Shown piece by piece: positions 10,077 to 24,178 of a stretch of DNA of 64,000 nt. The stretch's first letter is position 1. Each line of letters starts with the position of its first letter. The notes under the pieces are model-generated. The model was not told the DNA's origin. It did not search any database and was given only the letters and a program-made list of their open reading frames with translations. Source of the stretch: Ianthella basta (lineage: Eukaryota > Porifera > Demospongiae > Verongiida > Ianthellidae); the NCBI GenBank assembly GCA_964019415.1, contig OZ025875.1, forward strand, positions 4,226,411 through 4,290,410, written 5' to 3'. The translations under genes and the position numbers were made by a program.

Positions 10077-13000
10077 TCATGCAATCTCCGGATCCTGAAT
10101 GGGGTCTAGTTGTCCCCTGCAAATTACAGACTGGAGCTTCTCAGCATAATCAGCCTTACCCAACAGCCTCAGTGCCTTGAGGAGACTCAGCCAGTTAAAC
10201 GGAGGGTCAGGTGCACTGTCTGAGAACTTGTGAAGAGCTTCCATCATTGCATTACAGACATTCCCATGATTATTGACACTGGCTATGCCAATGTCTTCTT
10301 CCTTTATTTGCATGTATCGACAGAATTCTTTCCATTTATCACCAACCTTGTTCACAATGTAGAATTGAAGGTGATTAGTTGATGGCTTAGCTGCAGAACA
10401 AAGTAAGGCAGACAAAGACACTAAATGGAACTAAACCCATGATGGAATAACTTATAATTGCATGGTAAAGGCACATTTATCATGTCATTTCTCCTATACG
10501 CAGGGGAAATGCCATGATAAAGATGCATTATTTCAAAACATGCATGCTGCATAACATGATCAAATTGTACAGCTAGGATAGGTGTATTGCCAATCATATG
10601 AACCAAACATATGTCACTGATAAAAGTAATGTCAGTTCAAAAATCAGTTATCTGTCAATTAGTTATTTATTAGTCAATTACCTGAACCAATTATGCATAT
10701 TAAACAATCAAGAGGTTGCTGTTGGTGGCAAATGATTAACATGTATGGCAATATATGACAGCAGCAGAGAAATTATATTTACTGATAGGGATAGGAGGGG
10801 TGAATAAGCAATGCTGATATAGCACCCACTGCCATGGGCTATGCGTGACTATACAGTGACATATACGAATATCATTATGGCCATTCTGTATACTAACCAG
10901 GGCACTCATATGCAGATATAATTAATTCAAATAGTCATCAAGCTTAATTACACTATGAATGTAGTCTAATTAAGACAACACTTCATCCAACTGCAGGCAG
11001 GCCAAATATGGACTCTTTAAGATGTCTCTATGCATGAACATCACTACTGCATGTTTTTTTTTCCATTGTAATGTCTACACCATGCACTATTCCAAATTGC
11101 TTGCAGCCCAGTTGTTGCTCAGTTTACAAGTCTCAGAATCACTACTAAGGATCACTGGTCAACGTTTCTATTTACTAGGGCTGAAAATCAATCATCTCAA
11201 TAGGAGCAAACTCAAATATTATACAGTTTAACAACATGATAATATGTACTAGAGCAATGGTTGCTAAACTGGTTACTGGGCGATTGCATTCTACATCACA
11301 TTGCCTGATGCCATTTGTATAGCACTAAACTGAAGGGAGCTAGTAAAGGGTTTATATAAAAGAGTGAAAGTAGGCAGTTGTTAAGGTCAACCTGTTCTGT
11401 AAATGAGGGGGATACAGAGAGAGGGCATGTGCCATGCCTCCACTCCATGTTAATCACAGACATGGTCAAAGGAATTGGTTTATTGACGGTGGAAGTTCCA
11501 AGTACTAAGTATGCCATTGTCTATCCACATAGAAGTCTGCAACTCTGCCCCTTAACTCTAGTGTGTGTTGTTGTGTTGTCAGCTTCCACAACAATGGAAA
11601 AGGCAAATATCATGTAATGGATTCGGACGGACTCACTTTAGTATCATTGCCTTATATATATATATGATCGCATGAACAGTTACAAAATTGTCAACTGAAG
11701 ATTCAAAATACCTTTCAATCGGTTCAAATCGGTAGCACTCAACTGTGAAGGTTGCTGGGGAGTAGCTACCAACTGTGGAGGTTGCTTTGGGGTAGCAACC
11801 AGCTGCAGAGGTTGATGCTGTATGATGATAGAGCAAGCATAAAATCAGTATGAAGAGTAGTAATATCAGCTACAACACAATGTAAGTCCAGATTTGCCAT
11901 TAGCCTTAATCCATTAATGGAATACACAAATTCTCACAGGTTGTACTGAGCATTAAATTAATATCACGCATGCATGAAGCACCAGTGACAAGCTGTAATA
12001 TGTAGGGATTGCTAAGTCATTTAGCTGCTTATACGTGCTGGTGTACAAAACAACTTGAATCTATGCACACAGAGGTTTGATTAATTAATTAAGCGTATAT
12101 ACAACAGGACTTACTGAAGGGAAGAAACTCTCAAACGAACTAGTCCGTTGTAGCTGAGCATCATGGAGTGGACCTGCACAAACACACACATGTGCAAGGA
12201 TAGGTGTAAATTTAGTACATGTTCATAACAAACTGTTATCTTGATACTTCTCAAACTTCAATTGCAACAGCCTCCTCAAACACACCTCCACATATATAGA
12301 GGATGCCATGGAAAATGTAGCCTAAGGGTATACACAGCATTGGACAAGTGGGCACAGCTCCCTTGTTCATAGATTTCATGTGGGTTATGTGTCCAATGTA
12401 AACAATATGGGCACCCCTGACAGGAGCACCGCATCGCAAGTGCTCACATAACAAGTTAGATCAACTTATTAGCTATTCAAATTAACTTTCACTGTCCCCA
12501 ACTTCGCTATAGCCCACTTGCCCACCATGATTTACAGACAAGACTAGCTGCAGCCTTCCTAAGCAGCATTTCCACATTATAATATTATACTTTGTGACTT
12601 CCCGCTGAAGCATCATAGCATGTGCATGTAAGCAAAGCTTAAGAAAGTGACAGCTTATAATAACTTTCTATGAGCCACATGCTGTGCATGTGGGATATGG
12701 CTATGTAAACAATGCGCAGCCGATTTTGCCCTTCGCATTTTTGCTTATATCTCCTACAGGCTCAGCTGGATCAGAGCGGGACAAATACCAAAGTATAGAC
12801 AAAGTACTCTTCTATAACTCTGTGAATAAGCGTTGTTAATAATTCTTTCTTTAATCGAGTTATAGCAAGAGTAGATAAGAGATGAGAGTGTGCAACCGCG
12901 TATACGCACCCGTAACAGCATTTTTCTAAAATGACACAGCAACACGTCACACGTGGGCATGGTAACGCTACTTAATATTCTGATGTAATGGATGAATACT

Positions 13001-24178: not shown

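Follow-up and report, generated by a model that had tools for sequence, protein, structure and literature searches.

The described systems closest to the locus analysed here include the Roco proteins, such as DAPK1, MASL1/MFHAS1 and LRRK. Roc-COR is a dimer switch, and Death domains are nucleators of complexes. Available sections of three reports describe self-cutting of ZU5-UPA at HF/S or SF/S in PIDD, CARD8 and NLRP1 (PMC3210808), release of the C-terminal part of NLRP1 and CARD8 by proteasomal removal of the N-terminal part (PMC7794386), and an uncleavable N-terminal ubiquitin as a degradation signal (PMC3507821). As far as the accessible text of these sources goes, the expansion and reshuffling of domains of this kind has been described before, both in marine invertebrates (PMC8195603, PMC12909245, PMC8260672) and in brown-algal ROCO genes, where expansion and exon shuffling are discussed for ROCOs as candidate immune receptors (PMC11378527). 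The legend of a figure on the NLRs of Dysidea avara names UBQ and COR (PMC12909245).

The window (the whole stretch of 64 kb analysed here, C8:4226411-4290410) contains no runs of N and belongs to a genome of 209 Mb in 96 contigs, all of which was searched. On its minus strand, the ten-exon gene of the initial annotation was reproduced: the nine introns all have GT-AG borders and the ten exons join in one frame, with no phase break. The annotated length of 7,401 bases is obtained if exon 3 is taken from the acceptor at 18267, which removes six bases from our own model of 7,407 bases (including the stop codon; 2,468 amino acids, about 270 kDa); an exon 4 that begins at 17942 rather than 17885 is also open and gives 7,464 bases. 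All of the annotated domain types were recovered in the same order (twelve ubiquitin-like domains [UBLs], Roc-like GTPase, COR, ZU5 and Death), with ZU5 and COR-A scoring under their Pfam cut-offs, and the order further includes a low-complexity insert that splits the Roc-like GTPase and a UPA-like region between ZU5 and Death. Matches to paralogues exist for exons 2, 4, 9 and 10 and matches to C16 for exons 5-7, while exons 3 and 8 were placed by their borders and frame. Outside the gene, an open frame at 5526-6287 (+), approximately 4 kb from the Death exon and on the opposite strand, strongly matches NADAR (90.4 bits, cut-off 35.1), a family whose members are linked to the chemistry of NAD/ADP-ribose and to conflict systems. 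A retroelement reverse transcriptase/RNase H is present at 26508-28026 (-) (26508-27395 by Pfam, the remainder by eye), and a second reverse transcriptase-like frame, slightly below the cut-off, is present at 34979-35764 (+).

Exon 1 (18641..24178; this and all following window features are on the minus strand unless noted) consists of one uninterrupted frame of 1,846 amino acids, modelled from the Met that opens UBL1 (24178) to the donor at 18641, and it encodes the UBLs, the Roc-like GTPase with its insert, and COR. The UBL array occupies 21464..24178, where PF00240 finds twelve stretches (619.7 bits), the number previously annotated. UBL4 and UBL5 are identical to the genome's own ubiquitin at 64 and 70 of 76 positions, respectively, and the other ten at 25-46 of 76. 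UBL4, UBL5 and UBL6 are joined head to tail with zero spacing. Within the array, UBL1 and UBL6 are 56% identical, UBL2 and UBL7 82%, and UBL3 and UBL8 59%; UBL1-3 and UBL6-8 thus look like an internal block repeat. UBL1 also resembles the first unit of the paralogous arrays described below, and UBL10-12 resemble their last three.

UBL4 alone in the window ends in GG. Among the 160 aligned UBLs of the family (polyubiquitin left out), 11 have a GG end and five an RLRGG end, with tail gaps in the alignment that could hide some GG ends. The residues L8, I44 and V70 are kept together in 21 of these 160 units and in two of the twelve in the window. Because GG ends are few and UBL4 and UBL5 are near-ubiquitin, the array is best described as a predicted mosaic, parts of which mimic linear ubiquitin and most of which could not be processed. 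The earlier proposal that the protein brings its own linear ubiquitin-like chain therefore holds for UBL4 and UBL5 and for the direct head-to-tail joins, but the other ten units are diverged. A polyubiquitin precursor was considered and rejected, as 149 of the 160 UBLs are without a GlyGly end in the alignment.

The Roc-like GTPase has a P-loop (G1), GPPGVGKT, at 21347..21370, a G3-like DTGSQ at 20225..20239 and a G4-like VGTHKD at 19931..19948. The G1, G3 and G4 patterns are present in all 11 aligned members if S is allowed in G3 and N in G4. DTGSQ is unique to the window among these members; the other ten have the GGQ form (DTGGQ in nine UBL paralogues, DSGGQ in the C1 copy), and GTPase action of the window copy may be altered through this change. 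The low-complexity insert between G1 and G3 (20189..21178) is weakly constrained, with a dN/dS of 0.70 against C22:652k. In the C19 copy, the same insert contains dozens of AHEERLSAQ-like repeats. The Roc profile PF08477 matches one of the 11 members (best E 0.04). The COR-A-like domain (19166..19648) scores 21.4-23.3 bits against a cut-off of 35.3, and COR-A is matched by 10 of the 11 members at E ≤0.1 (best E 3.2e-5); the genome-wide COR-A search listed one UBL-family locus, C22:3117425, likewise under the cut-off. PDB sequences gave no match to the COR profile at E ≤10, and bacterial/archaeal and viral collections yielded no relative of the COR part.

Exon 1 is followed by two linker exons, exon 2 (18473..18545; matched in C22:3.1 Mb, 59%) and exon 3 (18203..18273, alternative acceptor 18267; no homologue found), and by a QPPQL-rich linker, exon 4 (17660..17885, or from 17942), which has a phase-1 donor. 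The ZU5-like exon 5 (15253..15851) enters in phase 1 and leaves in phase 0, as do its relatives in C16 and C1, and scores 19.2 bits, under the cut-off of 21; all four aligned members match ZU5 at E ≤0.1 (best 2.9e-5), and the ZU5 profile had no match among PDB sequences up to E 10. Near the C-terminal end of this domain is an SFS triplet (15439..15447) like the SF/S autoproteolysis motif of CARD8 and NLRP1. SFS is found in three of eight aligned ZU5 sequences, the window included, and "SFS anywhere" occurs in 5.8% of shuffles. Exons 6 (15024..15182; 159 bases, a length and borders that recur in C16) and 7 (14649..14910; phase-1 donor, as in C16) lie where UPA is expected and have C16 counterparts, though no Pfam UPA match was obtained in either. 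These are followed by a linker, exon 8 (12115..12173; phase 1 to 0, no homologue found), a second QPPQL-rich linker, exon 9 (11712..11817; phase 0 to 1), and exon 10 (10077..10390), which encodes the Death domain and the stop codon. Death scores 31.8 bits, above the cut-off of 22.6, and a search of PDB sequences gave one weak match (E 0.12).

The intron between exons 4 and 5 (17659-15852), which the initial annotation had named for checking, holds a feature that was overlooked there: a broken Death exon at approximately 16319-16042, which has frame changes and stops and whose DNA is 70-75% identical to that of exon 10. Exon 4 in turn is 70% identical to exon 9 over approximately 120 bases (blastn). 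From these two similarities, the tail consisting of QPPQL linker and Death is duplicated at the DNA level, with ZU5-UPA between the copies and the first Death decayed. The phase-1 donor of exon 4 fits in frame either the broken Death exon, which is then open to a stop near 16013, or ZU5. As a phase-1 start of the ZU5 exon is shared by the window, C16 and C1, and a phase-1 end of exon 7 by the window and C16 (exon 6 of C16 was compared directly, and the exon 7 phase comes from a reading of the sequence), ZU5-UPA is a putative symmetrical 1-1 cassette.

Several other observations concern these exons. An antisense stretch inside the same intron, 16530-16841 (+), resembles by eye a non-LTR reverse-transcriptase fragment. 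At C22:810379-802661 (-), Death fragments lie upstream of a frameshifted window-type ZU5, the order seen in the window (broken Death, then ZU5). Downstream of the COR exon of the C22:677k copy (C22:681222-682493), the QPPQL linker has grown into a long array of 10-residue units. At C5:8.90 Mb, there are three adjacent Death exons, 60-61% identical to that of the window, one of which follows, by eye, a membrane-spanning segment and appears receptor-like.

Pairwise dN/dS is 0.23-0.36 for GTPase-COR (four pairs), 0.16 for the P-loop and 0.13 and 0.19 for ZU5. For Death it is 0.34 against C5, while the comparison with C19 is saturated at synonymous sites. The ratio is below 1 in every pair that could be estimated, and the domain exons tested look to be under constraint.

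A GTPase-COR query of the whole genome gave at least 83 scored matches among 248 first-look candidates. Fourteen of these, corresponding to 13 loci, are 53-100% identical to the query (the window on C8, seven loci on C22, four on C34 and one on C19), and the remaining 69 are only 30-34% identical. Eleven of the 13 loci were read in sequence, with two C34 copies left out, and UBLs lie upstream of GTPase-COR in all 11. The UBLs and GTPase-COR form a single unbroken frame in nine; C22:705k has a frame break near the end of COR, and C22:761-767k (766k) is spread across multiple frames. In the ten copies whose array shares a frame with the GTPase, there are 18, 17, 17, 17, 16, 15, 13, 12 (window), 10 and 7 UBLs, as counted with a one-sequence ubiquitin model at a lax threshold. 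The COR exon closes at the same place in all 11 copies, with the donor GTAAG[T/C]. We considered whether C34 might be the other haplotype of C22 and rejected this, as two C34 loci, together 20 of 100 kb, were compared with the C22 stretch and their longest blastn matches to it are approximately 84-85%.

Downstream of COR, a Death or Death-like exon occurs on the same strand in all ten paralogues examined. In two, C19 (51%) and C22:3.11 Mb (50%), this is a Death exon of the window type; in the other eight it is a second type of Death-like exon, located approximately 1.4-7 kb from COR. Six of these eight match the Death of C19 directly (24-29%, E 3e-7 to 8e-6), and the other two (736k and 788k) match exons of the second type, for example that of 652k (65% and 64%). 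Pfam recognised no family in the two of the eight that were tested, and a related exon on C16 scores 12.3 bits against the cut-off of 22.6.

ZU5 is another matter. With the window's ZU5 as query, neither tblastn nor phmmer found a ZU5 between COR and the Death or Death-like exon of the ten paralogues (5,000 and 200 bases are N in two of the ten flanks, and the C22:3.1 Mb flank ends just before its Death exon). A broader ZU5 profile also found none in these flanks, yet detects the distant ZU5 genes of C22:816-832k. Among the 150 ZU5 matches listed, none lies within 15 kb downstream on the same strand at the 12 other UBL loci. ZU5 as a part of the ancestral UBL gene was thus discarded, none having been found at the other UBL loci, and the window copy alone, among the loci examined, may have gained an extra ZU5 module.

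Since the paralogues have UBLs and a downstream Death or Death-like exon, with no ZU5 found between, there is good support for a real, tandemly expanded family of UBL array-Roc-COR genes with a Death tail. The initial annotation had stated that known relatives combine only parts of the domain set; this does not hold within the genome itself, where ten other loci have UBLs, GTPase-COR and a Death or Death-like exon, with no ZU5 found there. The family would have arisen by lineage-specific tandem expansion of a UBL array, a split Roc GTPase, COR and a Death or Death-like exon, the last of these joined by predicted splicing.

Elsewhere in the genome, the 16 closest ZU5 relatives among the matches listed (51-71%) are on C4, C6, C7 and C16, and one of these contains stops; C22:803k carries a broken ZU5 copy, and there are at least 130 more distant relatives. 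On C16, ZU5-UPA-like exons follow SH3 exons, and upstream of both lies a Death-like exon that, at 12.3 bits, stays below the cut-off. On C1, ZU5 lies on the same strand as a GTPase-COR exon and 1.4 kb downstream of it, and no UBL was seen in the 0.8 kb examined upstream of this GTPase-COR copy. Among the ZU5 matches listed, four of the 69 distant GTPase-COR loci have a ZU5 within 15 kb downstream (three distinct ZU5 exons), and on this count COR-ZU5-Death was rejected as the general layout in this genome. CARD-like ends were seen by eye at C1 and C16 and are not claimed, as Pfam does not recognise them. A second GTPase-COR family (C5, C11, C16 and others) comprises at least 50 loci, many of which are 80-90% identical to the C1 copy.

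Whether the window encodes one protein with all five parts or two adjacent proteins depends on the interval between exons 4 and 5. A single five-part protein is the probable answer, in which ZU5 is likely joined to UBL-Roc-COR, as judged at this single locus from its frame, its position and the intron phases; the transcript would skip the dead Death exon and continue from COR by way of ZU5-UPA into the second Death. The alternative is a UBL-Roc-COR gene that ends in a decayed Death domain, or a truncated and dying copy, next to a separate ZU5-UPA-Death gene, with no five-part protein. This possibility is to be taken seriously, though we hold it to be the less probable one. Counted in its favour are the broken Death exon right after exon 4, between COR and ZU5 and open in the frame of exon 4, the failure to find ZU5 at other UBL loci, the occurrence of ZU5 relatives in other contexts, such as after the SH3 exons of C16, and one candidate first exon. 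However, the phase-1 start of ZU5 shared with C16 and C1 suggests that exon 5 is an internal exon in need of a phase-1 donor, which exon 4 supplies; since ZU5 looks internal elsewhere, a separate ZU5 gene would probably need an upstream coding exon of its own. A scan of the 1.8-kb interval for ATG exons of at least 10 codons with a strong donor gave one such candidate (ATG at 16370, phase-1 donor after 16250), but this is no better than chance (one seen, 0.66 expected from 200 base shuffles). Also speaking against two genes, exons 9 and 10, behind ZU5, have their homologues in exon 4 and the dead Death exon, and hence in the tail of the UBL gene itself. C1 was counted as a precedent for the fusion.

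Taken as a whole, the locus is somewhat better explained than not as a member of a Roco-type UBL-Roc-COR-Death family with a duplicated tail and an inserted ZU5-UPA cassette that works in the following manner. By analogy, the most likely gene product is an immune-like signalling protein of the Roco type, in which the UBLs in part imitate a linear ubiquitin chain that is for the most part uncleavable. Roc-COR would act as a nucleotide-controlled dimer switch, as in the named families, and the Death domain would nucleate a signalling complex. With several head-to-tail joins and almost no cleavable GlyGly ends, the N-terminal UBLs would imitate a permanent ubiquitin chain, to which ubiquitin-binding partners dock or which ubiquitin-handling enzymes sense. 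ZU5-UPA would restrain the Death domain, with a possible self-cut at SFS. Points against this account are the ZU5 and COR scores under the Pfam cut-offs, the missing matches in PDB sequences and to UPA, the second-type Death-like exons that Pfam did not recognise (two tested), the failure to find homologues of exons 3 and 8, the DTGSQ form of G3 and the absence of the L8/I44/V70 set from ten of the twelve window UBLs.

Other functions can be proposed for the array. The UBLs could be structural spacers without any ubiquitin-related function, spread by repeat recombination, as the absence of the L8/I44/V70 set from 10 of the 12 window UBLs and from 139 of the 160 in the family might indicate. 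We regard this as unlikely, given that 42 of the 160 reach 100 bits or more against the ubiquitin of the genome and that, of these 42, 16 keep L8/I44/V70, 29 keep K48 and 28 keep K63. Plant NLRs carry integrated decoys, and the array could similarly be an integrated bait, the target of ubiquitin-cutting, -modifying or -ligating enzymes of pathogens, whose action would trip the GTPase-Death switch. The family does have the look of an immune family (clusters on C22 and C34, variable array length, near-ubiquitin units in mid-array and a weakly constrained insert), but dN/dS is below 1 in all estimable pairs and the varying array length is also accounted for simply by repeat recombination, and we give the bait a slightly lower standing than the spacers. 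Self-cutting in PIDD, CARD8 and NLRP1, proteasomal release and the uncleavable-ubiquitin signal together suggest a functional-degradation switch as well, in which the uncleavable array would mark UBL-Roc-COR for p97/proteasome, like the substrates of ubiquitin-fusion degradation; once ZU5 had cut itself at SFS, elimination of the marked portion would release a signalling UPA-Death fragment, comparable to the UPA-CARD of NLRP1 and CARD8, but this we consider very improbable.

Overall, the family is real and unusual, and a five-part single protein is likely. If the anatomy reflects function, an animal lineage has wired an encoded ubiquitin-like chain straight to a GTPase switch and a Death domain, in contrast to better-known pathways in which the ubiquitin chain is attached post-translationally. 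If true, one protein could be used to test whether a ubiquitin chain alone licenses a death-fold complex. The family also suggests that phase-matched exon cassettes (linker, ZU5-UPA and Death) may recombine in frame as a route to receptor diversity. A literature search, with bioRxiv and most subscription journals outside its scope, found among the papers listed no report of a UBL array-Roc-COR-(ZU5)-Death protein.

With respect to known systems, the window protein shares head-to-tail ubiquitin units with polyubiquitin, represented in the same genome by a gene of five equally scoring units at C3:10079347-10080474, but its units are diverged (25-70 of 76 identical), have few GlyGly ends and are fused to other domains. 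Like Roco proteins, it has a P-loop, a D[TS]GGQ-like G3 and a VGTH.D G4 followed by a COR-A-like domain; unlike them, it has a UBL array in place of LRR, ankyrin or kinase, a long G1-G3 insert and a COR under the Pfam cut-off. In contrast to the FIIND of NLRP1/CARD8 and to PIDD, SFS is present in three of eight aligned sequences, UPA is without Pfam support, Roc-COR and UBLs stand in front and a self-cut is putative; as in those proteins, a ZU5 and a UPA-like region precede a C-terminal death-fold, with SFS near the end of the window's ZU5. The accessible sections of the reports on Death/TRADD-N and NLR expansions in marine invertebrates describe no UBL array-Roc-COR-Death protein (PMC8195603, PMC12909245), yet the present family resembles the expansions they document in its lineage-specific growth and in its shuffling with Death, ZU5/FIIND and ubiquitin-system domains.
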